From assembly GCF_023555385.1 (NCBI RefSeq), contig NZ_JAJSED010000001.1:558001-622000 (forward strand): a DNA stretch of 64,000 nucleotides, given 5' to 3'. The position numbers were made by a program, and so were the translations under genes. Shown piece by piece: positions 39,545-59,879 of the stretch (positions are counted from its first letter, which is position 1; each line of letters begins with the position of its first letter). This DNA is from Guyparkeria hydrothermalis. Its GTDB lineage: Bacteria; Pseudomonadota; Gammaproteobacteria; Halothiobacillales; Halothiobacillaceae. The notes under the pieces are model-generated. The model saw only the letters and a program-made list of their open reading frames with translations, was not told the origin of the DNA and made no database searches.

Positions 39545-40204
39545 TCAGAACCGGTACACCAGACCGACCTGCACGACCGGGTAAAGCTTGTAGTCCTCCA
39601 GTTCCTCGTTCAGGTCTTTTTCTTCCTGTTCCGCATACTGGTCGGCGATAGGCTGACGAAACGGATCGCTCGTCGTCACGTCAACGGTACCGTCAGGCTG
39701 ACCCTGGTACATCACGCCGATGTCAGCCCGGAACGACAGCCCCGGCTCGTTGTTCGCACTGCTCCAGCCGATGCCGAGGTACGGGGCAACCGGGTTGAAA
39801 TCAACGTCGGCGGTGATCCGGTCACCAGGCGCGGCAGGAACGGTGATCCCTTGGACCTGGTAACTGTCCTGGTTACCGACTGCGCTGAAACTGTTGTCAT
39901 TGAAGATCACGCCGCCGGTGACGCGAAAGTAACCGCCGAACGGGTGATAGTCACCCAGGAGGCCGGCGTTGCGCAGTTCAAGATCCCCGTCGTACTCGTT
40001 ACCGTCAACCGTGAAGGTCTCCGAATAGCTGCCGAAACCGGTGGTCAGGCGAGCGCGAAACTTGTTCGGGACGATTGTCATGCCGAGCTCGGGGCCGATG
40101 CCCAGCGTGCCGACATTGACGCCCACGTCATATTCGACGGCCTGCGCGCCGGAGCTGGCCAATATGGCCAACGGAATCGCGGACGTGATTAGAGCCTTCT
40201 TCAT
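39545..40204 (-). CDS. Outer-membrane beta-barrel protein of unknown role
   Basis: This 219-residue protein has a signal peptide (MKKALITSAIPLAILASSGAQA) and the opening VEYDVGVNVGTLGIGPELGMTI, followed by alternating beta-strand sequence and a terminal aromatic strand VQVGLVYRF typical of outer-membrane barrels. The block LLGDYHPFGGYFRVTGGVIFNDN resembles a widespread family of uncharacterised proteobacterial outer-membrane proteins. The ATG at 40204 has GAGGTG upstream. It stands alone, between the candidate sRNA and a DUF6231-like gene. Confidence 0.85.
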   Translation of the reverse strand: MKKALITSAIPLAILASSGAQAVEYDVGVNVGTLGIGPELGMTIVPNKFRARLTTGFGSYSETFTVDGNEYDGDLELRNAGLLGDYHPFGGYFRVTGGVIFNDNSFSAVGNQDSYQVQGITVPAAPGDRITADVDFNPVAPYLGIGWSSANNEPGLSFRADIGVMYQGQPDGTVDVTTSDPFRQPIADQYAEQEEKDLNEELEDYKLYPVVQVGLVYRF

Positions 40205-40364
40205 GGAACACCTCAGTTGATTCTGGTTGATTGGCGGTGTTCGCCGTCGCACTGCAAGCGACGACGGAGAAGGCATGGTGCACGACACATATCCGCGTTT
40301 ACAGGTTATCGGGACATACGGATCTCCGCGATGACACCGCGGCCTGGCGCCGTTCTGACGATCT

Positions 40365-40877
40365 TTACCAGCGGTACTTGCCCCAGAGTTCCGGGTTGGC
40401 CCAGTTGCGCGGGCTCAGCCAGTCAGGCGTGTCCTTGTAGGTCTCGATGTCGAACTGGTACAGCGGGATTTCCGCCTGCAGGCGTCGGTAGCCCAGGGCA
40501 ACCATCTGGCGGTCATCGGCATCGCCGACGCGTCCTTTTCCCAAGTGAACCATGATTCGGCGATTGGCACGGTCTCGCAACGCTGCCAGCAAACTGCCCA
40601 GCGTCTCTGACCAGGCGGTGCCGTCGACAAGAATCGCGACCGCGCCCGGGTCCGCTCGAATCGCCTTCAAGACGGCTTCCTGATCCTTCGGCAACCGGTG
40701 CGCGACCTGCGGCTCGGGACCTTGCCCGTCTTCATCAGCAACAACCAGCGTGATTCCCGGCGCACCATCATTCACCTTTTCACATGCAATCAACCGCTTG
40801 TCCGTCTCAAGCCGCTCATGACGCTCCCTCTCGCTGAGCTGCTGTACGTACAGGTCGGGTGTTTTTTTCGCATTCAC
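40365..40877 (-). CDS. Uncharacterised protein, DUF6231-like
   Basis: This 170-residue soluble protein has no signal peptide. Its second half (AVAILVDGTAWSETLGSLLAALRDRANRRIMVHLGKG) looks like a Rossmann-type strand-turn-helix unit, and the ending TPDWLSPRNWANPELWGKYRW resembles the C-terminus of DUF6231 proteins known mainly from Pseudomonas. No function is known. It starts 2 nt from the tRNA-Leu promoter and is divergent from it. Confidence 0.6.
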   Translation of the reverse strand: MNAKKTPDLYVQQLSERERHERLETDKRLIACEKVNDGAPGITLVVADEDGQGPEPQVAHRLPKDQEAVLKAIRADPGAVAILVDGTAWSETLGSLLAALRDRANRRIMVHLGKGRVGDADDRQMVALGYRRLQAEIPLYQFDIETYKDTPDWLSPRNWANPELWGKYRW

Positions 40878-40879
40878 TG

Positions 40880-40908
40880 TTGACAGCCCCTCTCGAGATT
40901 CCTAATAT
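40880..40908 (+). promoter_or_regulatory. Strong sigma70 promoter of tRNA-Leu
   Basis: A perfect TTGACA (40880-40885), a 17-nt spacer and TAATAT (40903-40908) lie just before the tRNA gene. The mature tRNA begins 11 nt after the -10 box. Confidence 0.82.
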
Positions 40909-40918
40909 GCGCGCCGTT

Positions 40919-41003
40919 GCCCAGGTGGCGGAACTGGTAGACGCGCTAGTTTCAGGTACTAGTGGAGAGATCCGTGGAGGTTCGAGTCCTCTCCTGGGCA
41001 CCA
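40919..41003 (+). tRNA. tRNA-Leu(CAG)
   Basis: The 85-nt class II tRNA has acceptor GCCCAGG/CCTGGGC, anticodon stem CTAGT/ACTAG with loop TTCAGGT (anticodon CAG), a long variable arm (GGAGAGATCC region), T arm GGAGG-TTCGAGT-CCTCT and encoded CCA. It has its own strong promoter and terminator. Confidence 0.95.
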
Positions 41004-41021
41004 AATTACAGATAGACGGTC

Positions 41022-41055
41022 AAGGCCGGTGGCTCGACGAGTCATCGGCCTTTTT
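41022..41055 (+). terminator. Rho-independent terminator after tRNA-Leu
   Basis: AAGGCCG (41022-41028) pairs with CGGCCTT (41046-41052), with an inner GCTC/GAGT stem, followed by T residues. It lies 18 nt past the tRNA end. Confidence 0.82.
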
Positions 41056-41110
41056 CGTGTCTTATGGCCTTGCGCCACATGACTTGGTCCATGTGATCAT
41101 CGACCATAAC

Positions 41111-41142
41111 AAAAGAGGCCCACCGTGCTTGGTGGGCCTTTT
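41111..41142. terminator. Rho-independent terminator downstream of fimV
   Basis: GGCCCACC-GTGCTT-GGTGGGCC (41117-41138) is a perfect 8-bp stem flanked by AAAA and TTTT. On the minus strand it lies 38 nt after the fimV stop. Confidence 0.8.
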
Positions 41143-41180
41143 CGATACCGCGGTGCCGCGTCTCCGCGGCGTGCCGCCAA

Positions 41181-43508
41181 TCAGGTCTCGTAACGCTGCT
41201 TCAGCTCGTCCAGACGCTCCAGCGCGGATTGGGCGCCCTCCTCCCGCAGCTCGGCCTCGATCATCTCGAAGCTCTCTCGGTCACCGACATCCAGGAACGC
41301 CTCGGCCAGGCTCACGCGAGTATCGATGTCCGCTTCGCTCTCAGCCGCCGAGTCGGAAGCGCTGGCACTCGGCTCGGTCTCCGCGTCTTCCTCAGGCTCC
41401 GGCGTCATGTCCAGCTCGAGACCGGTGTCCTCAGTGGTGTCCACCGTGGCCTCCGAGTTCGAGGCTGCTTCCGGCTCGTATCCGGACAGGTCCAGGTCCA
41501 GCGCTTCCGGTTCATCGTCAGACGTGGCGCGCGCGCCCTCCTCCTGATCGTCCGATGACGTTTCGCTCTCGGGCAGGTCAAGTAACGTTTCGTCGGTCGA
41601 CTCCGATTCCTCCGAGGGTTCCTCGCCGCCCGCGTTCTCCGGCTCGGCTGGCGTTTCCAGGGCGAACGAATCGTCGAACTCCATAAGGTTCTCGTCCGTC
41701 GTCGGCGCGGCCTCAGTCTCCGGGGTCGCGAGCATGTCGTCGAAATCATCGTCCCACGAAATCTCGCCCGCCGGTTCCGTGGCAGTTTCGGTCCGCTCCT
41801 CGGCATCTGCCTGCCAACTGGCGCCCGGCTCATCGTTTTCCGGCTCGCTGTCCCAGGCGACAGTCTCGGTGCCTTCGCTCACCGTTTCCTCGTCTGGCGT
41901 GCCAGCGTCCCCGTCGACGTCACCGCTGCCGGCTTCATCCTGTTCGATGCCGTTGAGCCGAGCGATCGCCGCCTGAAGGCCTGCATGCCCCGGATGCTCC
42001 GCGAGGCTTTCCTGAAGCAGTTCCAGCGCCTGGTGCGTGAGATTGAACGATTCGAGTACCCGTGCCTCCTCGAGGGCCATCTCCGGATTCATCGGATCGT
42101 TAGCATCCGATTCCACCCCGGCCGACTCACTCGTTTCGGTCTCGTCATAACCGCCGGCGGCAAATGCGCCTGCCGCTGCCCCACCGGCAACCGCTGATGC
42201 CGTCCCGACACGAGCGGTGTCGTGCTCCGCAACCGCCTTGTCGGCCACCGGTTCGTTGTTGACATCGGCCGTGGTCGGCATCGAAACCGCGGGTTCCTCG
42301 TCCTGACGGGCACGGCGCAAGCCGAGCGCAATCAGGAGGGCCAGAATCAGCAGCCCCATTGCGCCGGTCAGGTACATGCCCCACTGGACCCAGAAGTTGT
42401 TTTGGGTGGCTTCGGCCTGTTCAGCCTGCTGACGGGCGTCATTCACCACGTCCTTGAGGTCGGCAATGCGGGCATCACGCTCGTCGATCTCGACCTTTAC
42501 CGAATCGATCTCCTCCTTGAGAGCCTGCAGTTGCTCGGTCAGGGCTTCGTTCTCGGCCTTGACCGACTCCAACTCCTCCTCGTCGAGCGCGGCTTCGGCA
42601 TCGGTGGCTGCAGTTGTCTCGGGCTGGGAATCAACGACGGAAACTGCCGAGAGCGGGTTGTCCCGCGACAGATTGCCGAAGCCACCCAAGGTGGTTGCAG
42701 TGCCCTGCCCCTGATCCTGCGGACTCAACAGCTCGAGCGCCGGACGCTGCTCATCAGCGGCGACGGACGCCTCACCCGCAGTGCCGTCGCTCGTTTCCGT
42801 GCTCGACGGCACCTTGAGCTCTGCGCCGGCCAACAGCGCATTACCATTGCCATTGGCAAACGCTTGCGGGTTAGCGTCGATAATGGCCTGCATCATCGGC
42901 CGGATATCCTCACCCTCACCGACAAAGTCACGCGCGATCTCGGAGAGCGTGTCACCATGCTCAACCTTGTGAGTGGCATCGAGTTCGACATTCTCTGCCG
43001 GCTCGACACGCTGCCAGCCGGTCGAAACCGCCGGAGCCCGAGCCGGACGGCTCGTCTCGCGGCGAGTGGCCGGCTGGCTCGAGCCCGATTGTGTTTCCTC
43101 GGTTGCCGACGAGGCGACGGACGGCGGGTCGAGCAGGAGGTTGTACTCGCGGATCATGCGCCCCTGCGGCGACTGGACCTGCAGCAAAATGCTCATGATC
43201 GGGTCGCGGATCGGGCGCTTGGACCCGATCAGGACATAATCCTGGCCACGCTCCGACTCGATCGCGAACGTGAGGTTTCCGGTCAGGTTTGCCAGCGGAA
43301 CGCCGGCCTCGCGATAGAACGACGGTGGCGCGAGCTGGACGGTAATTTCGTCCAGAGGCTCGTCACTCGACCGCATGAGGGGGACGCGAACCTCCAAGCG
43401 TTCGCTCAAATACGACTGCACCTGGGCTTGGCCCAGCGTGGCGGCCTGGCTGATCAACGGGCTCCCAGCACCGAGGATGCCCGCAATCACCAAACTCAAC
43501 TTCCGCAT
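41181..43508 (-). CDS. fimV: FimV/HubP-family polar landmark protein
   Basis: This 775-residue protein has a signal peptide (MRKLSLVIAGILGAGSPLISQAATLGQAQ), an N-terminal FimV domain (LSERLEVRVPLMRSSDEPL), a LysM motif (VEHGDTLSEIARDFVGEGEDI), a coiled coil (ESVKAENEALTEQLQALKEEI) and one membrane helix (YLTGAMGLLILALLIALGL). A long acidic cytoplasmic part follows, ending in the FimV C-terminal domain (VSLAEAFLDVGDRESFEMIEAELREEG). FimV/HubP proteins organise the cell pole and type IV pili. The ATG at 43508 has AAGGAG 8 nt upstream. It follows asd, as in many gammaproteobacteria. Confidence 0.93.
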   Translation of the reverse strand: MRKLSLVIAGILGAGSPLISQAATLGQAQVQSYLSERLEVRVPLMRSSDEPLDEITVQLAPPSFYREAGVPLANLTGNLTFAIESERGQDYVLIGSKRPIRDPIMSILLQVQSPQGRMIREYNLLLDPPSVASSATEETQSGSSQPATRRETSRPARAPAVSTGWQRVEPAENVELDATHKVEHGDTLSEIARDFVGEGEDIRPMMQAIIDANPQAFANGNGNALLAGAELKVPSSTETSDGTAGEASVAADEQRPALELLSPQDQGQGTATTLGGFGNLSRDNPLSAVSVVDSQPETTAATDAEAALDEEELESVKAENEALTEQLQALKEEIDSVKVEIDERDARIADLKDVVNDARQQAEQAEATQNNFWVQWGMYLTGAMGLLILALLIALGLRRARQDEEPAVSMPTTADVNNEPVADKAVAEHDTARVGTASAVAGGAAAGAFAAGGYDETETSESAGVESDANDPMNPEMALEEARVLESFNLTHQALELLQESLAEHPGHAGLQAAIARLNGIEQDEAGSGDVDGDAGTPDEETVSEGTETVAWDSEPENDEPGASWQADAEERTETATEPAGEISWDDDFDDMLATPETEAAPTTDENLMEFDDSFALETPAEPENAGGEEPSEESESTDETLLDLPESETSSDDQEEGARATSDDEPEALDLDLSGYEPEAASNSEATVDTTEDTGLELDMTPEPEEDAETEPSASASDSAAESEADIDTRVSLAEAFLDVGDRESFEMIEAELREEGAQSALERLDELKQRYET

Positions 43509-43608
43509 GTCACTGACTCCTTGCTCGTGCCGGCTCGGTCGGGGGGCTCCCCTCACCTGCTTGCCGGCGCCTTCCTTTAGCCTCTATCGAGCCTGATTGT
43601 GCCACAGA

Positions 43609-44631
<1,023 letters not shown>

Positions 44632-49465: not shown

Positions 49466-50305
49466 TCACGACATCAGCGAGAGCGTCTCGGGGTAATAGT
49501 GAGCAACACCCTCGAGTATGCCGGCCGCATAGTTGCCGTTCATGCCCAGAAAATCGCCCCGGGCAAGATACAGTTGGTCGGACGTCCCGCTATCGCCGGC
49601 AAGGCGGCGTGCTGCCTCTTTGACCTCCGCCCGGGCATTTGCCACGAGCACGGCCGGGATGTCGCTGGTCAGGGCGGGAAGATCATTGCCGCTGTCACCG
49701 GCAAAGACGGTGCGGTGAGCCGGGATGCCGAGGCGGGCCTGGATGAAACGGATGGCGTGGATCTTGGTGGCGCTGAGAGGCAGTACGTCAACTAGACCCA
49801 CCTCGTTCATTTCATCCACGCTCCAGATCACACTCGAACGAATGCCTTCCCTTTCCAGGCGTTGCCGGATCGAGGTGACCAGCCCGTCGGCGTCGGTGTC
49901 CATCGGGGCGTAATAGCTCAGCTTGAAGGTGTTCTGCTTGGCGGCTTCCTGCGGTTGGAGACCATCAATTCCCTCCAGCCATCGGGCAAGAGATGCGCGA
50001 TCGTATCCCGCCCAGTCGGGAGCGATCTCCTGATGCCAATCCGCCCATGCCTGCCAATCGGTGCCGTCAAGGCGATAGATGGTTGTGCCGACATCGCCGA
50101 TGGCGAAGTCGGGCCTGGGGAGGTCGTATGCGGCGATGGCGTCGCGCAGTAACCTCTCGTCGCGGCCGCTCACGTAGGCCAGGACTACGTTCGGGTCGGC
50201 AACCAGCCGGGCGAAACGCTCACGAGCGCCCGGTGATTCCCGTTGACGACCGTTGGGGATCAGGGTGCGATCCAGGTCCGTACAGATCAGCAGTGGCTCA
50301 GTCAT
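49466..50305 (-). CDS. spp: Sucrose-phosphate phosphatase (HAD family)
   Basis: This 279-residue HAD-IIB phosphatase matches the cyanobacterial SPP pattern: ICTDLDRTL with nucleophile Asp10 and Asp12, LAYVSGRDERLL, DFAIGDVGTTIY, KLSYYAP, and the C-terminal VFAGDSGNDLPAL and AAGILEGVAHY. The reaction is sucrose 6-phosphate to sucrose, the last step of sucrose synthesis as a compatible solute. A mannosylglycerate-type phosphatase is a weaker alternative. No sucrose-phosphate synthase is in the window. It lies 15 nt after a GH100-like gene. Confidence 0.8.
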   Translation of the reverse strand: MTEPLLICTDLDRTLIPNGRQRESPGARERFARLVADPNVVLAYVSGRDERLLRDAIAAYDLPRPDFAIGDVGTTIYRLDGTDWQAWADWHQEIAPDWAGYDRASLARWLEGIDGLQPQEAAKQNTFKLSYYAPMDTDADGLVTSIRQRLEREGIRSSVIWSVDEMNEVGLVDVLPLSATKIHAIRFIQARLGIPAHRTVFAGDSGNDLPALTSDIPAVLVANARAEVKEAARRLAGDSGTSDQLYLARGDFLGMNGNYAAGILEGVAHYYPETLSLMS

Positions 50306-50320
50306 TAGCTCCCCGCCGGG

Positions 50321-51574
50321 TCACGCCCACGCACCTGCCTCGCGAATCAGCGGCTGTCCTTCGATGGCGTGATGAGCCATTACGGCCGCTGCGGCACTCC
50401 ATCCCTGACAACGATTGCCTCCCGCCGTGAGCTTCTTGCCATGCACGAACTCCGGGAACGCCCAGGGCTCGCCGTCCATCGGCAACGCGTTGGCACCGTG
50501 GATGCCGTCAAGGTAACGCCTTGCCTTCACCGAGTGGCCACGGGCGACCAGGTCCGCCACGTAGAAGCCGGTAATCATTGGCCATAGACCGCCATTGTGG
50601 AATTCGTACGGATTGTTCTTGAAGCTGTAGGAAAACATCATCTGGAGATGCTCCCAGTCGTGGTCGACGGGCTCGATCACGGGGTGGAATGCCGGGAGGA
50701 GCGACAGCTGGTCCGGGGTGATCTCGCCGATGTACTGGTCGACGTGCTCGGTCTCGCTGGCCTCCGCCACACCGAACATACCGGCCAGCACGTTGGCAAA
50801 GGCATCGAAACGGTAGCCGTAGCCCGTCGGCGAAAAGAACGGCATCCAGTAACGGGACTCCCGGTGCGGCGCGGCCTCCCTGCCCTTGTGGTAGAGCACC
50901 TCATGGTAGACATCTTCGGGCTCTACGCCGTTGAACCAGTAGTTGCTACGGATCAGATGGCGCAACCGAGTAGTGCGATCTTCCAGTTGGTGGTCTGCCG
51001 AGCCGTGCACGTGATGGTGGATACGACAAAAGGAGCGCAGCGCCTGCAGATAAAGAAGCTGGTCGTACAGGATGTAGCCCGTCTGGAGGTACTCATCGGC
51101 CCAGTCCCCGGTCTGGGGCACATAGATCAGGCCGCGGTCATTGAACTCCCATGCGCCAAGCAGGAAGCGGACGCGTTCGAGCGAGGGCAGCATCTCGGCG
51201 AGGAACTCGTCGTCACCGGTGGCGAGCCAGTATTCCGCGCAACCGATGACGAACCACAGGTCCGCGTCGACCCGGCCGGTGGTGCCGCCGTAGCTGATCC
51301 GACTGGTTCTGGTATCGACATTGCTTGGTATTTCGCCGTGCTCGCCCTGGTGGTCGGCGAGCGTCTTCAAGGTCTTGCGCATGGTGTCGATCAACGAGTC
51401 GATCCCGGTCATCAGCGCTGCCAGGCCGATTATCACGCCGTCGCGAGCCCAGATGCGACGATAGTTGTCATGGGTCACGGTCGACGCCAGAAAGCCGTCG
51501 TCCGTCGCCAGCTGCCAGAGCAGCTCACGCGCCTGTTCGTACCCTTCCTTGCGCAGATCGGACGCTTCGGACAT
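50321..51574 (-). CDS. GH100-like glycoside hydrolase (neutral invertase-like)
   Basis: This 417-residue protein is an alpha/alpha-barrel type glycosidase: NYRRIWARDGVIIGLAALMTG, HGEIPSNVD, GGTTGRVDADLWFVIGCAEYWLATGDDEFL, and QTGDWADEYLQTGYILYDQLLYLQALRSF. These motifs resemble GH100 neutral/alkaline invertases and related amylo-1,6-glucosidase-like proteins. Directly upstream of the sucrose-phosphate phosphatase gene, a sucrose-cleaving role is the best inference. GGAGGTGTG immediately precedes the ATG at 51574. No signal peptide, so cytoplasmic. Confidence 0.75.
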   Translation of the reverse strand: MSEASDLRKEGYEQARELLWQLATDDGFLASTVTHDNYRRIWARDGVIIGLAALMTGIDSLIDTMRKTLKTLADHQGEHGEIPSNVDTRTSRISYGGTTGRVDADLWFVIGCAEYWLATGDDEFLAEMLPSLERVRFLLGAWEFNDRGLIYVPQTGDWADEYLQTGYILYDQLLYLQALRSFCRIHHHVHGSADHQLEDRTTRLRHLIRSNYWFNGVEPEDVYHEVLYHKGREAAPHRESRYWMPFFSPTGYGYRFDAFANVLAGMFGVAEASETEHVDQYIGEITPDQLSLLPAFHPVIEPVDHDWEHLQMMFSYSFKNNPYEFHNGGLWPMITGFYVADLVARGHSVKARRYLDGIHGANALPMDGEPWAFPEFVHGKKLTAGGNRCQGWSAAAAVMAHHAIEGQPLIREAGAWA

Positions 51575-51671
51575 CACACCTCCTCCTCGATGAGGATCAC
51601 TCCGCGACATCCCCTATCCTAGCCGGCTTCGACTCCCACTGCCGCATCCGGCGGCTGCGCTTCGAATCGCC

Positions 51672-52898
51672 TCATCGCGGTCCGTCATCGACCGCCGACT
51701 CCAGCCGGACGAGCTGCAGGCTGAGCCCCCCTGCGAGCACCACGAACAGCAGCGCGAACCCGATGCTGCCCGTCATGCCGATCCACTGATAGCTCAACCC
51801 GGAGAGCACCGTCCCCACGAGCCGGCCGGTGGCGTTGGCCGCGTAGTAGAAGCCGACATTCATCGACGCCTTCTCCTCGGCAGAGTAACGCAGGATCAGA
51901 TACGAATGCGTCGCCGAATTGATCGCGAACACGACACCGAAGAACGCCAGCCCGAGGCTGATGACCAGGCCGTCGGTCCAACCTAGCGCGAATGCCAGCA
52001 GAATCGCGACCAGCGGCAGCGTGAGGGCGAAGCTCCAAACCGTAGCGGTGCGCCCGGTGGGCCCGTCGGCCGTGGTGGGAGCGGCTGGCCGGCGTCCCCC
52101 CAGCAGCCGTGGCGCCAGTGACTGAACCACGCCGTAGCCGATCACCCACAGCGCGAGATAGGCGCCCACCCAGTGAAAGTCCCAGCCAATGGACACCAAG
52201 AATACCGGTAGCGCCACGACGAACCATACGTCGCGCGCCGCGAACAGGAATATACGGGCTGCGGCAAGCCAGTTGATCAGCGGCTCCCGCGAAAACATGC
52301 TGGAAAAACCCTTTCGCTCCCTGATCGCGCCGAAACCACCCGGCAGAGTCAGCGTCATCACCAGCCCGATCACAAGCATGCCCGCAAGCCAGCCCATCGC
52401 GCCCTGAAAGCCAGCCACTGACAGCAGCACCGCGCCGAGGAAAAAGCCCGCACCCTTTAATGCATTCTTCGACCCGGTAATCCAGGCCACCCAGCGGAAC
52501 AACTGCGCGTTGCTCTCCCTGGCGACCAGCTTCACTCCGGCCTTGGCCGACATCTTGTTGAGATCCTTCGCGATGCCCGAGAGCGCCTGGGCAGTCATCA
52601 CGTAGGCCACGCTCAGCCACGGATCGGGCACGGTCAGCATCAGCAACGCCAGGACTTGTAGCCCGGTGCCGATCTGCATGGTCCGGTTCAGACCGATGCG
52701 CGCTCCCAACCAGCCGCCGACAAGGTTGGTGACGATGCCGAAGAACTCGTAGAAGAGGAACAGCATCGCGATTGCGAACGGCGAATATCCCAGCTGGTAG
52801 AAGTGGAGAACCACCAGCATGCGGATCGCCCCATCGGTAAGGGTGAACAGCCAGTAGTTGCCAGTGATGGTGAGGTAGTGGCGCAGGGCGGCGGGCAC
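51672..52898 (-). CDS. arsJ: ArsJ-type MFS transporter (organoarsenical efflux)
   Basis: ArsJ exports 1-arseno-3-phosphoglycerate, formed from arsenate by a dedicated GAPDH. The 408-residue, 12-helix MFS protein carries characteristic ArsJ blocks: NYWLFTLTDGAIRMLVVLHF, LFLFYEFFGIVTNLVGGWLG, QALSGIAKDLNKMSAKAGVKLV, ITGSKNALKGAGFFLG, and FLFAARDVWFVVALPVFL. It starts at GTG with AAGGGAG 6 nt upstream. Immediately upstream, in the same direction, is a decayed gapdh (stop 32 nt before), so the usual operon partner is broken. Confidence 0.88.
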   Translation of the reverse strand: MPAALRHYLTITGNYWLFTLTDGAIRMLVVLHFYQLGYSPFAIAMLFLFYEFFGIVTNLVGGWLGARIGLNRTMQIGTGLQVLALLMLTVPDPWLSVAYVMTAQALSGIAKDLNKMSAKAGVKLVARESNAQLFRWVAWITGSKNALKGAGFFLGAVLLSVAGFQGAMGWLAGMLVIGLVMTLTLPGGFGAIRERKGFSSMFSREPLINWLAAARIFLFAARDVWFVVALPVFLVSIGWDFHWVGAYLALWVIGYGVVQSLAPRLLGGRRPAAPTTADGPTGRTATVWSFALTLPLVAILLAFALGWTDGLVISLGLAFFGVVFAINSATHSYLILRYSAEEKASMNVGFYYAANATGRLVGTVLSGLSYQWIGMTGSIGFALLFVVLAGGLSLQLVRLESAVDDGPR

Positions 52899-52930
52899 GT
52901 GGGGCTCCCTTGACTGACGGTAATCCGGAT

Positions 52931-53349
52931 TTACGCCCGGGCGATCGTGGCGACCAGTGCGACCAGGCGGTTGGCGTGGCCCTACTCGGTGCCGTACCCG
53001 GCCATCACCTGCTCCAGCTCGTCGTCGATGACCGTGGTCGAGGGCGCATCGACAGCCGTGGAACTCGGGTCGTCGGTGTAATCCACCGACGAAAGCGGCT
53101 GGGTCTCGTAGCCCAGAATACCCTCCAACGGGCCATTGGCTGCCTTCTCGCGTGACTCATTGACCTCGGCCGCGGCGGTGGCGCGTTCTGGAGTCAACAC
53201 TGAGCCGGTCAGTTGCGCCATGCAGGCGGCATCACCCCCTATCTCGTTCAGTGGAATCACATCCGCCCCACATCAGGGCGATCCGAGATGGCCCGAAATG
53301 CCAATCGGCCAATGGGGCCAAAACCGTTGATTCCCTGACGAATCGTCAT
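52931..53349 (-). pseudogene. gapdh: Glyceraldehyde-3-phosphate dehydrogenase remnant (ArsJ-associated type)
   Basis: The minus strand from ATG 53349 encodes MTIR-QGINGFGPIGRLAFRA-ISDRPDV, the Rossmann N-terminus of GAPDH (GINGFGRIGRL), then hits TGA. One frame over, near 53260, the match resumes with VIPLNEIGGDAACMAQL. It then jumps to the C-terminal domain (EVNE...AANGPLEGILGYETQPLSSVDY, DPSSTAVDAPSTTVID), and the YDNEWGY motif reads YGTE-stop-GHANR, a TAG for the conserved Trp, followed by LVALV. A frameshift, a loss of roughly 200 codons including the catalytic Cys region, and a nonsense codon show it is dead. It directly precedes arsJ. Confidence 0.88.
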
Positions 53350-53381
53350 GACTCGCCCTTCGAACGATCCCGCCCAAGGGA

Positions 53382-53410
53382 TATATATGCCGGTCGGGAT
53401 AAAGCGTCAG
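53382..53410 (-). promoter_or_regulatory. Promoter of the gapdh remnant and arsJ
   Basis: On the minus strand CTGACG (53405-53410) and TATATA (53382-53387) are 17 nt apart. The predicted start near 53375 is about 25 nt ahead of the old gapdh ATG, so arsJ may still be transcribed from the original operon promoter. Confidence 0.5.
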
Positions 53411-53656
53411 GATACTGACCCGAAATGACACTTTTGTAACACTTTCACGCGCCCGTTTTTCCCCGGTTTCACGGAACGGAAAGTTTTTCACAGAAACTGT
53501 GGATAACTGTGTGGACGAACCCGAGAATCGCCGGTCCCACAAGGCGGGGGACAGTGTTGGTGAATTTTTAACCAGATTCGACCCGACACCACAAAGTCCT
53601 TGCGAAACAGGTAGTTATGGAATCATTGTCGGTAAGCGACTGATTCGCCGTGCACG
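53411..53656. other. Intergenic region with DnaA-box-like pair
   Basis: About 250 bp without a gene. The only structured element is an inverted pair of DnaA-box-like 9-mers at 53484-53506. The remainder is unremarkable and somewhat AT-richer than its surroundings. Confidence 0.5.
53484..53506. promoter_or_regulatory. Inverted pair of DnaA-box-like 9-mers
   Basis: TGTGGATAA (53498-53506) is the exact complement of the strong DnaA box TTATCCACA. TTTTTCACA (53484-53492), 5 nt away and in opposite orientation, matches 7 of 9. No replication genes are nearby. Confidence 0.4.
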
Positions 53657-53681
53657 AAAAAGGCGCAACCGTGGCTGCGCC
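53657..53681 (-). terminator. Rho-independent terminator downstream of gloA
   Basis: GGCGCA (53662-53667) pairs with TGCGCC (53676-53681). On the minus strand five T residues follow. It lies 50 nt past the gloA stop. Confidence 0.72.
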
Positions 53682-53730
53682 CGCACCGATGTGGAAAATG
53701 ATCGCTGTCAACCCTTGACAGCCGGCAAAT

Positions 53731-54120
53731 TTACGCCCCTTTCGAACCGATCAATTCGATCGCGTAACCGTCGGGGTCGGCAACGAACGCGATGATGGTT
53801 GTACCGGCATTCATCGGGCCGGGTTCGCGCAGAATCTTGCCGCCTTTTTCGCGGATCTTATCGGCCGCCTGATAGACGTCCTCGACTTCGATCGCGATGT
53901 GCCCGTAGCCGTCACCGAGATCGTATTGATGATCGCCCCAGTTGTAGGTGAGCTCGAGAACCGCCGTATCGCTCTCTTCGCCGTAACCGACGAACGCCAG
54001 AGTGAACTCGCCGGCCGGATAATCCTGTTGCCGCAGCAACTTCATTCCGAGCACATTGGTATAGAAGTCGAGCGATTTTTCCAGGTCGCTGACGCGGATC
54101 ATCGTGTGAAGAATGCGCAT
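53731..54120 (-). CDS. gloA: Lactoylglutathione lyase (glyoxalase I)
   Basis: GloA isomerises the hemithioacetal of methylglyoxal and glutathione. The 129-residue protein matches bacterial nickel/cobalt glyoxalase I: metal ligands His5, Glu56, His74 and Glu122 are all present ([36 protein letters not shown]). Length and ligand numbering equal E. coli GlxI. It lies 44 nt after a GGDEF-EAL gene. Confidence 0.95.
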
Positions 54121-54164: not shown

Positions 54165-56897
54165 CTAACGAATTCGATCGCCGGCCGCGAGCCGATCGGC
54201 CATCGCACCGTCCACGCGCACCTGGAGCGGTTCCGGCCGGTGAAGGAGGAACCCTTGCACGTAGTCGACGCCCATGTCCGCGACCTGCCGATACTGCGCA
54301 TCCGCCTCGACCCACTCGGCAACCGTAGCGGCCTCCATCACCCGACATACCTGAACGATCGCGTCCACGATCACCGCGGCGACGGGATCGGCAGGTAAAT
54401 CCTCGATCAACTTACCGTCGATCTTGACGATATCCGGCCGCAGTCGGCGCAGGAACTCGAACGAGAGGAAACCGCCCCCGAAATCATCCAGTGCGAACCG
54501 GCAGCCCATCTCGCGCATCGCGTGAATCAGCCGCTCCGCCTGGTCGAGATTGAGAATGGCCGCCGTTTCGGTGATCTCGAAGATCAGTCGACTGAGGTCC
54601 ACGGACGTCTCGCGCAGCCGGTACCGGATGAAGTCGAGCATTTCCGGATCCTGGACCGTATGCGCCGACAGATTGATGCTGATCGACCAGCGACCCGCCG
54701 GCTGGTTCTCCGCCCACTCGAGCACGTGATGGATGACCCAGCGATCGATGTCCTGCATCGCCTGGTGTTTCTCGGCAATCTCGATGAATTCCTTGGGGAA
54801 ACGCAGCTGACCGTCCCCATCGGCGATGCGCAGCAGCACCTCGTGGATCACGCCGTCGCCTGCCCCAACCGATTCGATGCGCTGGCTCGCCAGTGAGAGG
54901 CGGTCTTCCGCGATGGCCGAGCGCAACGCGTTGTACCGCTCGATCTGCTGCTCGCGCTCCATCATCTCCATGTCATCGCCGGAGAACTGAACCACGCGGT
55001 CGCCGCCCAGTCGGTGTGCACTCTGACTGGCCCGCTCGGCATCCTCGAGACGTCGCGAAGCCAGCAGGTCGTCACTGTCGATACGCGTCACGCCCACACT
55101 GGCCTTTAACTGCAGATGCCCGTGATCGTCCGGGAGACGAAAACCGTGAATGATCTCCAGCACCTGCCGCGCGACCAGGGTGCAGGTGTCCCGGCTGGTC
55201 AGTGGCATCCAGATCGCGAATTCATCCACGCCCATCCGCGCGAGAACCGCGTCGGATGGCAGTTCCAGGGAAAAATGACTGGCAAGCGACGCCAGTATCC
55301 GATCCCCGAGATCGCGCGTTCCGATCTCGTTGAGCAGGCGGAACTCGTCAAGATCCGTCCAGATCAGGCAGCTCGCGTGGATCGGCTCCCCGCTTGCCGA
55401 CCGACCGGGCATCGCCTGGGACAGGAACTCTTCCATCGCCTCGCGATTGAGGATTCCGGTCAGACGATCGTGCGTCGCCCGGTAGGTCAGCAGGGCATGC
55501 GCCGAGCGCAACTCGGTGACGTCCAGCATCGAGACCAGCACCTGATTCTCGCCTTCGGCCTCCAGGCGGCTCAGCTTCAGGTTCACGTCGAATCGCTCGT
55601 GGTCCCGCTCGATGGTGCCGTCAACCGAGCGTGTCTCGCGGGACTCGACCGTGTCGACCAGATCGGTGAATGCACAATCGGCCGACAGGCCGTCGACCCG
55701 CATGCGGAACGTCTCGCAGAACAGGTTGCCTACCAGGTCTTCCTCCCGCTCCACACAGGCGAACGGCAGCACCGCGCGGTTCGCTAACAGGATTCGTCCC
55801 TGTGCATCGGTCAGTAGCGCGCCGGTATGCAGGCCGGAAAACGCACGCCGGAGGCGTTTCTTCTCGGCACGGATACGGCGCGTGGCACGCCTGGCCTGCC
55901 ATGCAAACAGCCCGAGAACGAGGGCAAGCACGCCGACGAAATACTGTCCGTAGTGCGACAGCAATGTCTGGGGCGTGAGCGGAGACGGCAGCCACTTGTC
56001 CCGCAGGCGATCGACAACCGAGTAATCCAGCGGCGTTTTCCATCCGGCCACCCGCCCTTCGCGGGCGGCATCGGAGGTTGCGGGCATCGCGATCAGCTGG
56101 GCCGCCACGCGGTGGACGACCTCCTCCGGGGCGCGGCCGGTCGCGGCGAATGGCCACTCGGGCACCAGCGGCGTGTTCGTGGGGTAGGGAAAACCCTCAT
56201 GGCGTGGTTGTCCGACCGGCTCGAGCCGCGTGTCCGGGAACTGCTCGAGGTACTCATGGAAGAAGCTCGACCGCACGACGCCGGCGTGGGCCCGACCGTC
56301 GAGGACGGCATCGATCACGCCTTCCAGCGGCAGGCCGGTGAATATGGGGGTAATCTCGTGCTCGACGTCGACGCCCGCACTGTCCAGCGCCTGCATGCCC
56401 AGCAGCCAGCCGCCCAGCGCATTCGGACTTGAGCCGGCCACCCGAGCGCCGACCAGATCGTCGACCGAGTCGAAACCTGCACCCTGGCGGGCGAAGATCA
56501 CCGCGCCGAGCCGTTCGAGGGGAAGGCCCTGATCACCATGCACGACCAACGTGGCAAGGGGCCATATCTCGTCGAGGCGGGCAAGCTCGGAGTACTGCAA
56601 CGATTGGGTGAGGACGAAGTCGAGCCGCCCTTCCATAAAGGCGTTGCGCAATTCGGATAGGAATAGCGGTTTGATCTCGAATCGGTATCCGGCGTTGTGT
56701 GCCGTGAGGTAGTCGGCGGTCTCCTGCCAACGATCGAGGGCTTGATCTTTGCCCGCGTAGGCGAGCACCCCGATCGTAAGCGTCTGGGTCGCCTCGGCGT
56801 TGACCCGAAGCGGGAAGGCGGCAACGACCAACAGCATCAGTGCCGAAAGCCGTATCACCAAGGGTCTGAGGGAAAGCCACCGGGCGGAAAATGTCAT
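54165..56897 (-). CDS. Membrane PhnD-like sensor GGDEF-EAL protein (c-di-GMP enzyme), copy 1
   Basis: This 910-residue protein has a signal/anchor (VIRLSALMLLVVAAFPLRVNA), a periplasmic PhnD-like phosphonate-type binding domain (LTIGVLAYAGKDQALDRWQETADYL), one membrane helix (about 318-335), a PAS-like region, a GGDEF domain and an EAL domain. The GGDEF signature is altered to GVDEF (about residue 556). The EAL part keeps EVL, NLS, FEITETA, LDDFGGG, KIDGKL, EWVE and QGF, so it is probably an active c-di-GMP phosphodiesterase with an impaired or regulatory GGDEF. It is paralogous to the next gene upstream (about 90 nt gap). Confidence 0.9.
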   Translation of the reverse strand: MTFSARWLSLRPLVIRLSALMLLVVAAFPLRVNAEATQTLTIGVLAYAGKDQALDRWQETADYLTAHNAGYRFEIKPLFLSELRNAFMEGRLDFVLTQSLQYSELARLDEIWPLATLVVHGDQGLPLERLGAVIFARQGAGFDSVDDLVGARVAGSSPNALGGWLLGMQALDSAGVDVEHEITPIFTGLPLEGVIDAVLDGRAHAGVVRSSFFHEYLEQFPDTRLEPVGQPRHEGFPYPTNTPLVPEWPFAATGRAPEEVVHRVAAQLIAMPATSDAAREGRVAGWKTPLDYSVVDRLRDKWLPSPLTPQTLLSHYGQYFVGVLALVLGLFAWQARRATRRIRAEKKRLRRAFSGLHTGALLTDAQGRILLANRAVLPFACVEREEDLVGNLFCETFRMRVDGLSADCAFTDLVDTVESRETRSVDGTIERDHERFDVNLKLSRLEAEGENQVLVSMLDVTELRSAHALLTYRATHDRLTGILNREAMEEFLSQAMPGRSASGEPIHASCLIWTDLDEFRLLNEIGTRDLGDRILASLASHFSLELPSDAVLARMGVDEFAIWMPLTSRDTCTLVARQVLEIIHGFRLPDDHGHLQLKASVGVTRIDSDDLLASRRLEDAERASQSAHRLGGDRVVQFSGDDMEMMEREQQIERYNALRSAIAEDRLSLASQRIESVGAGDGVIHEVLLRIADGDGQLRFPKEFIEIAEKHQAMQDIDRWVIHHVLEWAENQPAGRWSISINLSAHTVQDPEMLDFIRYRLRETSVDLSRLIFEITETAAILNLDQAERLIHAMREMGCRFALDDFGGGFLSFEFLRRLRPDIVKIDGKLIEDLPADPVAAVIVDAIVQVCRVMEAATVAEWVEADAQYRQVADMGVDYVQGFLLHRPEPLQVRVDGAMADRLAAGDRIR

Positions 56898-56987
56898 CGG
56901 CTCATCCCTGCTGTGTCCAGCATGGTTCGAATCCGCACCTCATCCAACGAATGCAATGCCATGGCATGACTGGAGCCATGACGGCCA

Positions 56988-59879
56988 TCAGCCGGAGGTC
57001 GTGGTCCGAGCATCAACCAAGTACCCATCTAGGGGAACCGGCCGATGGAAGAGGTACCCCTGGGCGAAATCCACCCCGATGCTCGCGAGGCTACTCCTCG
57101 TCGAGGCATTTTCCACCCACTCACCCACGGTTTTCGCCCCCATTACCCGCGCCACCGAGTGGATCGACTCGACGATCACCGCCGCGACCGGGTCGCTCTC
57201 GATGTCGCTGACCAGCTTGCCGTCGATCTTGACGATATCCGGTTGCAGGCGCCGGAGGAAGTCGAACGACAGCAAACCGCCGCCGAAGTCGTCCAGCGCG
57301 ACCATGCAGCCAAGATCGCGGAGGGCTGCGATCAGCTCGAGGGCCTGGTCGAAATTGGCGATCGCCGCCGTTTCGGTCACCTCGAAACAGATCCAGTCCG
57401 GCTCGATCGCACTTCGGTTTAGCTCATCGCGAACGTAGGAGGCCAGTTCGCCGTCCTTCATCGACTGGCCGGACAGGTTAACGGTGAGCCGCGCCGGCGG
57501 GGACGATGACGAGCCCAGATGTCGTTGAAGCATCCGGAAGGCGTTGTTTATCACCCACCGGTCAACCGGCGGCATGTAGTTGAATCGCTCGGCCAGCTCG
57601 ATCATCGGACCGGGCGACTCGTACTCGCCCTCTCCCCCGTCGAGTCGCAGCAATACTTCAAGCCACGGCCCGTCACAATCCGTTGCCAGCGAATGGATCT
57701 CCTGGCCATGAAGGACGAAACGATCCTTCTCGAGTGCCTCCTTGAGCCGGTTGAGCTCAGCAAAATCCGCCTGCCGCAAGGCCCGCTCGCTTTCCCCTTC
57801 CTCATACGTCACCAGGCGATTGCCGCCGAGGTGTTTCGCGATCAGGCAAGCCGATTCCGCTTCCTGAAGGGCCGATGCGGCATCGATGTTCAGGTCGGCC
57901 GGGAGTACTCGGGCACCGATGCTGGCCGTGACGCGCAGCATCTGATCGCCGTCTCCCATCCGGAAGGCGCGGACCGCCTCGAGAACACGATCGGGCCATT
58001 CTTGCCAGTCCGGTGTCATGTCGTCAGCGAGAAAGATCCCGAACTCGTCGTCACCGAGCCGCCCTATCGGCGTGCCGGCCGGTAACAGTACCCCGAGGTA
58101 ACTCGCCATGCGCCGCACCAGTTCGTCACCAATGCCGTGCGAGCCGCCCTCGTTGATCAGCCGAAAATGGTCGAGATCCAGCCACAGCACGACACCCCCG
58201 TCGTATGTCCGCGCCGATGAGTCCGATGACAGCCGTCGGTCGACGAACTGGATGAAACTGCGTCGGTTGAGCAGGCCGGACAGCTCGTCGTGGCTGGCTC
58301 GATAGGCAAGCTGCCGATTCGCGTCCACCAGCTCAGTGACATCGGTCATCGATACGAGGACCTCGCGGACCGGCCCTTCAGTCCGGCCGTCCATCCGGAT
58401 CGCATTGAGGTCGAGGATCCGGCTGGGGTGCCCATGAGCAAGCACCACGGGATACTCGACCCAGCCGTCGCGGTTCAGGCGCTCGTAGAGACCGCCCAAG
58501 GAGAAATCATGATGGTCGTGGCGCAGGAGAAGCGCGAAGGCATCCAGAAAATGGCGCCCTTGGGCCCGGCTGGGCGGCATATCCTCGGTCAGGAGACGTT
58601 CGGCAGCCGGATTCATGAACTGGATCCGGCCACGGGGATCAAGCGTGACAACGGCATCGCGCATCGCGTTGAGCGCCGCCCGGTGTTCGCGTTCCCGACC
58701 GGCCAGTTTCCGACGAGCACGCCATTGCTGACCCAGCAGCAGGGCCAGCAGGCCACTCAACGCGACCGGGATCACCCACCAGTTGGCACGCAGCCAGTCC
58801 TCAAGCGTCTGCGGGGGCGTGAGCCACCGGTCGGCCATGGTCTCGAGGCCGTCATAACTCGCCGGTTCGGTCCAGCCGACCAGCCCGGCAGCCTGAACGG
58901 GGGGCGCCTGCCTCGGCAGGGAAAGCAAAGCGGTGCGCACCTGCGCGACCAGGCCCTCGTCCGGGCGCGAAGTCGCCGCAAAGGGCCATTCCGGTACCAG
59001 ACGAGTCGAGACCGGATGCGGATAGCCCGGCTGGTTCACCGGATCGAGCACGACGAACGTATCCGCCGGGTACGTCTCGGTCTCGATTGCCCGTGCGAGC
59101 ACATCGGAGCGGACGATGCCCGCATCCGCCCTCCCGGCGACAACCGCGCCGAGGACATTGTTCATCGGCAAGCCGACGAACAGCGGCAGGACGTCGTCCT
59201 CGAGAGACAGGCCGGCCCGCTCGATTTCGGCCATTCCCAGTATCCACGCGCCGAGCGCGTTGGGGGCCACGCCGGCAATGATCGCTCCCCGCAGGTCCCG
59301 GAGTTCGTCAATATCCGTTCGGTCGCGGTGGCGCACGATGACTGAACCGAACCGGTTCATCCCGTCACCCGTGTCATCGATCACACGCGTGGCCAGGGCC
59401 GTCAGATCATGTCTGCGCCGCAGCTGCACGAACTGCAACGGCTGCAGATGCACGAAATCAAGCTCGTTTTGCCGTACCGCGCGGGCGATTTCCTGCAGGT
59501 AAAGTGGCCGAATTTCAAAGCGGGTGCCCTCCACCTGGTGGCTGAGGTAATCCGCTGTCGCATTCCAGCGAGCCTTTGCTTCTTCCTTACTGGTGATGGT
59601 GAGCACGCCGACTGTCACCAGGCGATCTTCGCTGGCCCAGGCGGCGGCCAGTGCCGTGCCCTGCCCGCTCAAGGCCAGTAGCGCCCCGAACGCGAGAATG
59701 AAAGCTCGAGACTGTCTCAGGACACAAAAAAAGCGGGAGGGGGCCAATGCCCCACCCCGCCGTGTCGAGAAGCCCCCCCGCCGTTCGGCAATAATGACGG
59801 GCTTGTCATCCGTTTCCAGCATTCCAGACGTTCCTTGCCTGTCTCTGTTTCCTGTCACGCCGATGGGGTTCGGAGCCAC
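56988..59879 (-). CDS. Membrane PhnD-like sensor GGDEF-EAL protein (c-di-GMP enzyme), copy 2
   Basis: This paralogue of the adjacent gene has the same order: hydrophobic anchor (FILAFGALLALSGQGTALAAA), PhnD-like periplasmic domain (VTVGVLTITSKEEAKARWNATADYL), membrane helix, PAS, GGDEF and EAL. The GGDEF signature is GDDEF (about residue 610); EAL residues (EVL, VNLS, VTETA, LDDFGGG, KIDGKL, EWVE, QGY) are intact. The start is uncertain: GTG 59879 has GGAGG 7 nt upstream (963 aa), ATG 59822 has AAGGA (944 aa). A strong terminator-like hairpin lies inside its first 60 codons. Confidence 0.88.
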   Translation of the reverse strand: MAPNPIGVTGNRDRQGTSGMLETDDKPVIIAERRGGFSTRRGGALAPSRFFCVLRQSRAFILAFGALLALSGQGTALAAAWASEDRLVTVGVLTITSKEEAKARWNATADYLSHQVEGTRFEIRPLYLQEIARAVRQNELDFVHLQPLQFVQLRRRHDLTALATRVIDDTGDGMNRFGSVIVRHRDRTDIDELRDLRGAIIAGVAPNALGAWILGMAEIERAGLSLEDDVLPLFVGLPMNNVLGAVVAGRADAGIVRSDVLARAIETETYPADTFVVLDPVNQPGYPHPVSTRLVPEWPFAATSRPDEGLVAQVRTALLSLPRQAPPVQAAGLVGWTEPASYDGLETMADRWLTPPQTLEDWLRANWWVIPVALSGLLALLLGQQWRARRKLAGREREHRAALNAMRDAVVTLDPRGRIQFMNPAAERLLTEDMPPSRAQGRHFLDAFALLLRHDHHDFSLGGLYERLNRDGWVEYPVVLAHGHPSRILDLNAIRMDGRTEGPVREVLVSMTDVTELVDANRQLAYRASHDELSGLLNRRSFIQFVDRRLSSDSSARTYDGGVVLWLDLDHFRLINEGGSHGIGDELVRRMASYLGVLLPAGTPIGRLGDDEFGIFLADDMTPDWQEWPDRVLEAVRAFRMGDGDQMLRVTASIGARVLPADLNIDAASALQEAESACLIAKHLGGNRLVTYEEGESERALRQADFAELNRLKEALEKDRFVLHGQEIHSLATDCDGPWLEVLLRLDGGEGEYESPGPMIELAERFNYMPPVDRWVINNAFRMLQRHLGSSSSPPARLTVNLSGQSMKDGELASYVRDELNRSAIEPDWICFEVTETAAIANFDQALELIAALRDLGCMVALDDFGGGLLSFDFLRRLQPDIVKIDGKLVSDIESDPVAAVIVESIHSVARVMGAKTVGEWVENASTRSSLASIGVDFAQGYLFHRPVPLDGYLVDARTTTSG
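59726..59760 (-). terminator. Terminator-like hairpin inside the 5' end of the GGDEF-EAL gene
   Basis: On the minus strand, a GCGGG...CCCGC outer stem (59760-59733) with an inner GGGGC/GCCCC stem and ATTG loop is followed by seven T residues (59732-59726). It lies 165 nt after the argG stop. It could end argG transcripts, or act as an attenuator for the GGDEF-EAL gene in which it is embedded. Confidence 0.72.

Follow-up and report, generated by a model that had tools for sequence, protein, structure and literature searches.

A decayed GAPDH gene beside a retained arsJ in Guyparkeria

Two published models clash over the cargo of the arsenic transporter ArsJ: in one it is 1-arseno-3-phosphoglycerate (1As3PG) made by a co-encoded glyceraldehyde-3-phosphate dehydrogenase (GAPDH), and in the other it is free arsenate. 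Here we describe a locus on the minus strand of a 64,000-nucleotide stretch of a Guyparkeria genome (the window, G000:C1:558001-622000) in which arsJ is intact and the gapdh directly upstream of it has decayed. The host is a salt-loving sulfur bacterium; among named organisms, Guyparkeria sp. WRN-7 and G. hydrothermalis R3 are closest to it, and its genome (G000) consists of one contig of 2.39 Mb with an estimated completeness of 99.94%. Our reading is that this lineage has lost the gapdh of an ancestral gapdh-arsJ pair, and that ArsJ has been kept under selection and is probably still exporting arsenate without a dedicated GAPDH; we give this reading, in which the export is deduced rather than observed, a probability of about 0.75.

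In Pseudomonas aeruginosa DK2, the gapdh-arsJ arsenate efflux pair (Chen et al., 2016) resembles the window locus, where an ArsJ over the family cut-off has a remnant of an ArsJ-associated gapdh directly upstream, but differs in that gapdh is dead in the window and neither arsR nor any other ars gene is found at the window locus. In Halomonas GFAJ-1, arsJ (mfs2) and gapdh have been described as a single efflux system (PMC5930303). The var operon of Vibrio cholerae (arsR-varG-varH-arsJ) offers a functional comparison, wherein mutation of arsJ sensitises the cells to arsenate far more than mutation of varG (gapdh) does; the arsJ mutant accumulates about 20 times as much arsenate as the wild type, against about 3 times for the varG mutant (PMC9601151). 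Extracellular 1As3PG was undetected. The authors' conclusion is that free arsenate is expelled by ArsJ, and they also allow for some 1As3PG made by the glycolytic Gap; their "VarG-" species imply ArsJ without GAPDH, and whether the ArsJ of VarG-less species differs is left open (PMC9601151). The likeness to Guyparkeria is that ArsJ appears as the main arsenate determinant without ArsC, and the Vibrio ArsJ works, if less well, without VarG. The differences are that no ArsR gene lies beside the window arsJ, that no gene for a phosphatase was seen to separate gapdh from arsJ, and that the loss of GAPDH is natural (PMC9601151). Thioalkalivibrio thiocyanoxidans ARh2, a haloalkaliphilic sulfur oxidiser, likewise has ArsJ without an adjoining dedicated GAPDH in the operon, so that ArsJ without GAPDH is already in print once, in passing; the available account of that ArsJ comes without gene debris, dating or a selection test (PMC6620896). 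Among the papers listed in searches of open-licence PMC, none treats a decayed gapdh beside a kept arsJ in its title or the opening of its abstract, which is weak evidence of novelty.

The decayed gapdh and its place in the genus

The features of the pair, all on the minus strand, are as follows.

51672 to 52898, minus strand: arsJ, intact, 408 aa, GTG start (NF033734, 539.7 bits; omega on this branch 0.033; MFS-like fold in the AlphaFold model)
52905 to 52911, minus strand: AAGGGAG, resembling a ribosome-binding site, 6 nt before the arsJ GTG (from the sequence)
52931 to 53349, minus strand: full extent of the decayed gapdh, of the ArsJ-associated kind (aligned to the intact gene at the syntenic place in nine relatives)
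53266 to 53349, minus strand: N-terminal piece, 28 codons in frame, MTIRQGINGFGPIGRL... (alignment)
53264 to 53265, minus strand: site at which the reading frame of the intact copies is lost (alignment)
53207 to 53263, minus strand: second piece, 19 codons, DVIPLNEIGGDAACMAQLT, in another frame (alignment; 594 bp missing relative to G003)
52934 to 53206, minus strand: C-terminal piece, 91 codons (NF033735 positions 235-311 of 323, 69.8 bits)
52982 to 52984, minus strand: TAG at the Trp of NEWGY in the intact copies (alignment)

An earlier note, made from the sequence alone, had read a gapdh remnant upstream of arsJ, with a frameshift near 53262, a loss of about 200 codons where the NEIGGDAACMAQLT region joins the C-terminal domain, and a TAG in place of the Trp of NEWGY. 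Alignment of 52931-53349 to ArsJ-linked GAPDH genes recovers all four. From 53349, the frame MTIRQGINGFGPIGRLAFRAISDRPDVG runs for 28 codons and breaks at 53265-53264, after which DVIPLNEIGGDAACMAQLT follows in another frame. At 53212-53207 (junction bases CTGACC) the NEIGGDAACMAQLT region runs without a gap into the C-terminal domain, which ends AGYGTE-TAG-GHANRLVALVATIARA, with the nonsense codon at 52984-52982. Among GAPDH families the C-terminal piece is best matched by NF033735, the ArsJ-associated GAPDH, over 77 positions, and a match of that family to the remnant that includes one TAG reaches 78.8 bits. The remnant nevertheless falls outside the family, being below the 450-bit cut-off and interrupted in frame, and the window genome thus lacks a two-gene system of intact, adjacent gapdh and arsJ.

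Two features go beyond the earlier note, namely the nature of the deletion and the conservation of the locus order through the genus. Relative to the intact copy of G003, the deletion takes away 594 bp, or 198 codons, and is in frame. SCTTNC is the catalytic motif of GAPDH; it falls within the deleted codons, and the remnant has no catalytic Cys. The deletion is flanked by two copies of CTGACCGA[A/C]TTCG (CTGACCGAATTCG and CTGACCGACTTCG) that are identical at 12 of 13 positions. Judging from this junction, the 594-bp loss is likely to have come about by deletion between short direct repeats, and gapdh probably died by this event or along with it.

Although the species is represented by one assembly, a sequencing or assembly artefact that conceals an intact gapdh has a very small probability, as the damage is of several independent kinds, including a long deletion with a clean short-repeat junction, and the genome is a nearly complete single contig. 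The remnant goes beyond chance or sequencing error because the deletion, the frame break and the nonsense codon are joined by changes at 25 of 94 genus-invariant residues in a one-contig genome, while the gene is intact in all nine relatives with arsJ at that place.

ArsJ scores over its cut-off in 10 of the 11 genus genomes searched, the exception (G005) being 64% complete. An intact gapdh, defined as an uninterrupted NF033735 match over the cut-off, adjoins arsJ in 9/9 of the other arsJ-bearing genomes and is missing from the window genome alone, so sister species do carry the intact pair that the earlier note had in mind. The gene order argG-GGDEF genes-gloA-gapdh-arsJ-(GH100-SPP)-LysR-leuD, where SPP is a sucrose-phosphate-phosphatase-like gene, is common to all ten genomes, with exceptions in the number of GGDEF genes (one rather than two in G006, G008, and G009) and in the sucrose genes GH100-SPP, which G002 and G008 lack here; both retain gapdh-arsJ. 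G003 is the sister of the window ArsJ in the tree (local support 1.0), and gapdh is intact in G003 and the others; the loss of gapdh is therefore younger than the split from G003. The comparison shows an ancestral gapdh-arsJ pair at one syntenic place across the genus, from which gapdh was lost in this lineage only.

ArsJ and the selection on its gene

By its sequence, the window ArsJ is a complete transporter of the major facilitator superfamily (MFS), with a predicted role in arsenate export and resistance. The whole protein matches NCBIfam NF033734 (MFS_ArsJ) over profile positions 1-391 of 392, well above the curated cut-off of 400 bits. The AlphaFold model (mean predicted local distance difference test score, pLDDT, 85.6) has a complete MFS-like fold, and among the matches listed it aligns to 50 PDB structures, VMAT, NorA, and MdfA among them, with query template modelling (TM) scores of 0.64-0.81; we take these structures to be MFS transporters. 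A sequence-profile search of the PDB with ArsJ gave no relative at E 0.01. The GTG is also found at the same arsJ start in the closest relative, G003, and with AAGGGAG six nucleotides 5′ of it the translation of arsJ would not need to depend on the dead gapdh.

An alignment of 67 ArsJs from outside the genus, none classed as orphan, provides 134 columns conserved in at least 97% of sequences. The window ArsJ deviates at two of these, both deviations being shared with gapdh-bearing members of the genus, and it retains all 15 conserved R/K/D/E/H residues. The earlier note had raised the possibility that ArsJ gained another substrate, and had found its upkeep next to sucrose genes noteworthy. Such a shift, for example to a sugar phosphate tied to the downstream sucrose genes, would draw on the GH100-like and sucrose-phosphate-phosphatase-like genes adjoining on the same strand. 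It is highly improbable, since the same gene order occurs where gapdh is intact, the sucrose genes are not at this place in two genomes, none of the 134 most conserved columns changed in this lineage specifically, and the private changes at genus-invariant sites number only four. A link between arsJ and the sucrose genes was rejected on the synteny of the ten genomes, in which the order is ancestral and gapdh-arsJ persists without the sucrose genes in G002 and G008.

Selection was estimated with our own codon-model script (GY94 type, F3x4) on a ten-taxon tree, in which the remnant contributes 137 codons. For arsJ the ratio of nonsynonymous to synonymous rates (omega, dN/dS) is 0.033 on the window branch versus 0.041 elsewhere (twice the log-likelihood difference, 2dlnL, 0.32), and omega = 1 on this branch is rejected (2dlnL 25.9); dN/dS, which the earlier note had proposed as a check, thus gives no sign of relaxation. 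The gapdh remnant has an omega of 0.184 versus 0.059 elsewhere (2dlnL 6.88). In a two-segment model, constrained and then neutral, the remnant receives a neutral stretch of 0.29 substitutions per codon, or 10% of the branch, and arsJ receives none. Forcing 0.30 neutral substitutions per codon on arsJ costs 39 units of log-likelihood (lnL), and 0.05 costs 3.3 lnL.

Counts of genus-invariant residues changed solely in this genome, which are independent of branch lengths, agree with the models: 25/94 in the remnant versus 4/275 in ArsJ (Fisher 1e-12). Among control genes, the private changes are 1/311 in the housekeeping GAPDH (nine genomes), 1/100 in gloA, 1/165 in LysR, and 0/172 in leuD. Compared with the sister G003, the window has 2/132 versus 4/134 in SPP, 6/255 versus 9/258 in the GH100-like gene, and 13/453 versus 20/460 in the first GGDEF gene (GGDEF1), where the count leaves out G008, whose match is another GGDEF gene. 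A general acceleration of the lineage was rejected on these figures, with zero or one private change in four controls and the other three genes no more changed than in G003. As far as substitutions can tell, these results show ArsJ to be under undiminished purifying selection after the loss of gapdh.

The alternative that ArsJ is a relic without damage so far, in a pair that became useless once gapdh broke and whose arsJ is to follow, corresponds to the earlier note's suggestion that ArsJ is on its way out. It draws on the absence of arsR from the locus and on other genomes in which arsJ is damaged beside gapdh debris (L120, G314). However, over the neutral time fitted to the remnant arsJ should have changed visibly, yet a neutral period of that length is worse by about 39 lnL and even 0.05 by 3.3, omega is as low as elsewhere, the invariant sites of arsJ are nearly unchanged beside those of the remnant, and arsJ has neither a stop nor a frame break. 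The relic explanation is very unlikely, and decay of arsJ was rejected on the codon models and the invariant-site counts.

Probable arsenate export without the dedicated GAPDH

A canonical ars operon (arsR, arsC, and arsB or ACR3, with reductase and arsenite exporter) was not found in the window genome. ACR3 had no match in a family search that recovered 7 of 14 controls, and no arsR lies in the window, with three ArsR-type helix-turn-helix genes elsewhere in the genome. The lone ArsC-family match is to NF008107, "ArsC family reductase" (123.6 bits versus a cut-off of 121), beside dapE (545 bits), and is presumably YffB. The lone LMWPc match is closest to protein-tyrosine phosphatases rather than arsenate reductases. 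Second, weaker LMWPc matches (48-55 bits) occur in G001, G006, G008, and G009, with a partial one in G010 and none in the window genome; those of G001 and G009 are closest to the thioredoxin-type arsenate reductase but fall short of its 174-bit cut-off, at 98 and 105 bits. ArsJ is the sole putative arsenic exporter recognised in this genome, where ACR3 and ArsB were searched for and no search was made for ArsP, ArsK, and others.

If ArsJ exports arsenate without a dedicated GAPDH, two routes can be considered. By the more likely one, ArsJ would export free arsenate directly, and the GAPDH would formerly have been an accessory that tied up arsenate at high dose; this option, which needs no GAPDH and was missing from the earlier note, is the one published for V. 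cholerae (PMC9601151). By the less likely route, the housekeeping GAPDH would have taken over the first step, slowly making 1As3PG for export by ArsJ in the manner of the two-gene model first proposed. At G000:C1:1623657-1624622 the housekeeping gene is intact and highly conserved, the residues of ArsJ that are conserved outside the genus are retained, and in V. cholerae the glycolytic Gap acts on arsenate and could be a source of 1As3PG in the absence of VarG (PMC9601151). On the other hand, the single private change among 311 invariant sites gives no sign of adaptation to arsenate, the V. cholerae glycolytic enzyme preferred phosphate, and extracellular 1As3PG went undetected there (PMC9601151). 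The earlier note's proposal that the housekeeping enzyme supplies the substrate is thus possible as far as the gene itself goes, but is somewhat unlikely and is placed behind the export of free arsenate.

Among 369 Gammaproteobacteria genomes sampled with the NF033734 and NF033735 cut-offs (400 and 450 bits), 73 have ArsJ; 56 of these, and no others, have the dedicated GAPDH. Seventeen ArsJ genomes have no GAPDH over the cut-off, and the surroundings of the 16 other than the window genome were compared with intact GAPDHs. Debris of gapdh beside an uninterrupted arsJ occurs in four of the 17 (the window genome, G263, G090, and G296), and in G090 an ArsR-family gene is still upstream of the debris. 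The partner runs off a contig end in G205 and G070, as does ArsJ itself in G273. The retrieved stretch of the other ten (G133, G072, G228, G374, G141, G136, G029, G330, G142, and G190) has no GAPDH-like sequence, where only 1.4 kb upstream is readable in G133 and ArsJ ends at the contig end in G190. Within the 56, two genomes do not have an intact pair: in G325 the over-cut-off GAPDH is broken in frame and carries a stop, next to an arsJ without interruption, and G365 shows the opposite, as described below. The GAPDH is distant from arsJ in G055 (17 kb) and G156 (8 kb), the two genes are on different contigs in G351, and arsJ is split over two contigs in G068. An uninterrupted arsJ with a missing or broken gapdh is found in 15 genomes and the reverse in one (sign test 5e-4, ignoring relatedness and draft errors). 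This 15-to-1 imbalance says that GAPDH would be the more dispensable of the two genes.

A further 80 loci, three of them from the genus and some possibly overlapping with the class sample, include 62 with a full GAPDH at most 2 kb upstream, eight with none, and two with scraps (L106 and L120). The remainder comprises six near a contig end (L086 has 1.8 kb upstream and no GAPDH), L072 with GAPDH in two pieces, and L081 with GAPDH 4.8 kb away. When ten orphan or scrap genomes were searched, four had a dedicated GAPDH over the cut-off elsewhere. L106, with an N-terminal gapdh scrap, was not counted as its genome holds another over-cut-off dedicated GAPDH, and L120 was kept out of the tally of gapdh debris next to an intact arsJ because an in-frame stop interrupts its arsJ.

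Ectothiorhodospira mobilis (L044) also has arsJ without gapdh, and its lone GAPDH match does not reach the dedicated family's cut-off. Its ArsJ is 77% identical to that of the window and is placed among the Guyparkeria-genus ArsJs in the tree, which suggests horizontal transfer. At L044 5408-9221 the order is ArsR-family gene, MBL-fold hydrolase, ArsP_1 permease, and arsJ. G090, G263, G296, G325, and E. mobilis are all like the window genome in that arsJ is uninterrupted and gapdh is either fragmentary or missing; G090 and E. mobilis differ in their upstream ArsR-family gene, which the Guyparkeria locus is without.

Residues specific to orphan ArsJs were sought by comparing 23 orphans, including the window, with 76 others in 1943 tests with no correction for relatedness; nine loci had been set aside, namely three duplicates from the genus, five loci close to a contig end, and L140, which is closely related to L044. 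No residue passes the Bonferroni limit (best p = 4e-5 versus 2.6e-5).

Lopsided loss, here and in other bacteria, suggests that ArsJ can work without its dedicated partner. A broader proposal is that dependence is essentially one-way across Gammaproteobacteria, GAPDH being worthless without ArsJ and ArsJ being useful without GAPDH because it would export free arsenate. We regard this as tentative, at a little less than even odds, and it is weakened by one counter-case, G365 (L155 829-3054), in which an uninterrupted dedicated GAPDH is followed by a frame-broken arsJ, in a draft of about 350 contigs where a sequencing error is possible.

Several further points weigh against the reading of a retained arsenate exporter that needs no dedicated GAPDH. 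Export of free arsenate and export of 1As3PG made by the housekeeping enzyme look alike at the sequence level. The case for a two-gene system was made in the 2016 study of P. aeruginosa (via PMC5930303, PMC6205960, and PMC9601151), and green algal genomes have both genes or neither, contrary to a general dispensability of GAPDH (PMC7826186). In G314 (L156 1642-3311) gapdh is in pieces with an internal gap and arsJ is in two frames, and at L120 7620-9041 gapdh debris accompanies the in-frame stop in arsJ; in both, the two members of the pair are decaying, and loss of arsJ can follow loss of gapdh. The ArsB negative in the window genome is not absolute, as 6 of 14 controls were recovered and the E. 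coli control was not among them. No sigma-70-like promoter was found upstream in a consensus scan of 51500-53750. Synonymous sites are strongly diverged on the window branch, so branch lengths are rough, and on substitutions alone a zero neutral time for the remnant is worse by just 2.7 lnL; the remaining weight is carried by the lesions and the invariant-site counts.

Recent loss of GAPDH, undiminished selection on ArsJ, and no other recognised arsenic exporter together make a clean natural experiment on the ArsJ substrate. The case is a natural knock-out with parallels elsewhere, and the sucrose neighbourhood is incidental. If our reading is true, the substrate of ArsJ would be testable in this natural, recent GAPDH knock-out without an engineered mutant.

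Flanking features

Two further features lie on the gapdh side of the pair.

53350 to 53730, minus strand: stretch separating the remnant from gloA, with blocks conserved across the genus; it presumably served as the leader when gapdh-arsJ was still a unit (ten-genome alignment)
53731 to 54120, minus strand: gloA, lactoylglutathione lyase family, conserved upstream neighbour outside the arsenic unit (profile match and synteny)

The blocks of 53350-53730 that are conserved in the ten genus genomes include a perfect DnaA-box-like TTATCCACA, the sole one in the window, where 0.09 are expected. Of the 10 genomes, 8 match exactly a 32-base pattern around TTATCCACA in which one base is left free. A GGTTAAAAATTAACC-like palindrome is partly conserved in the same gloA-gapdh intergenic region. 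Rfam gave two matches on 53340-53800, both below the curated thresholds.

Beyond gloA, 54165-59879 encodes two large GGDEF-EAL-like proteins side by side, both similar to the TtrS sensor model in their N-terminal parts; G006, G008, and G009 each have apparently one of the two. On the other side, the GH100-like and sucrose-phosphate-phosphatase-like genes at 49466-51610, missing here in G002 and G008, represent a separate gain or loss. Across the window, the GC skew flips from positive to negative near 40000-44000 and is negative thereafter to the window end.

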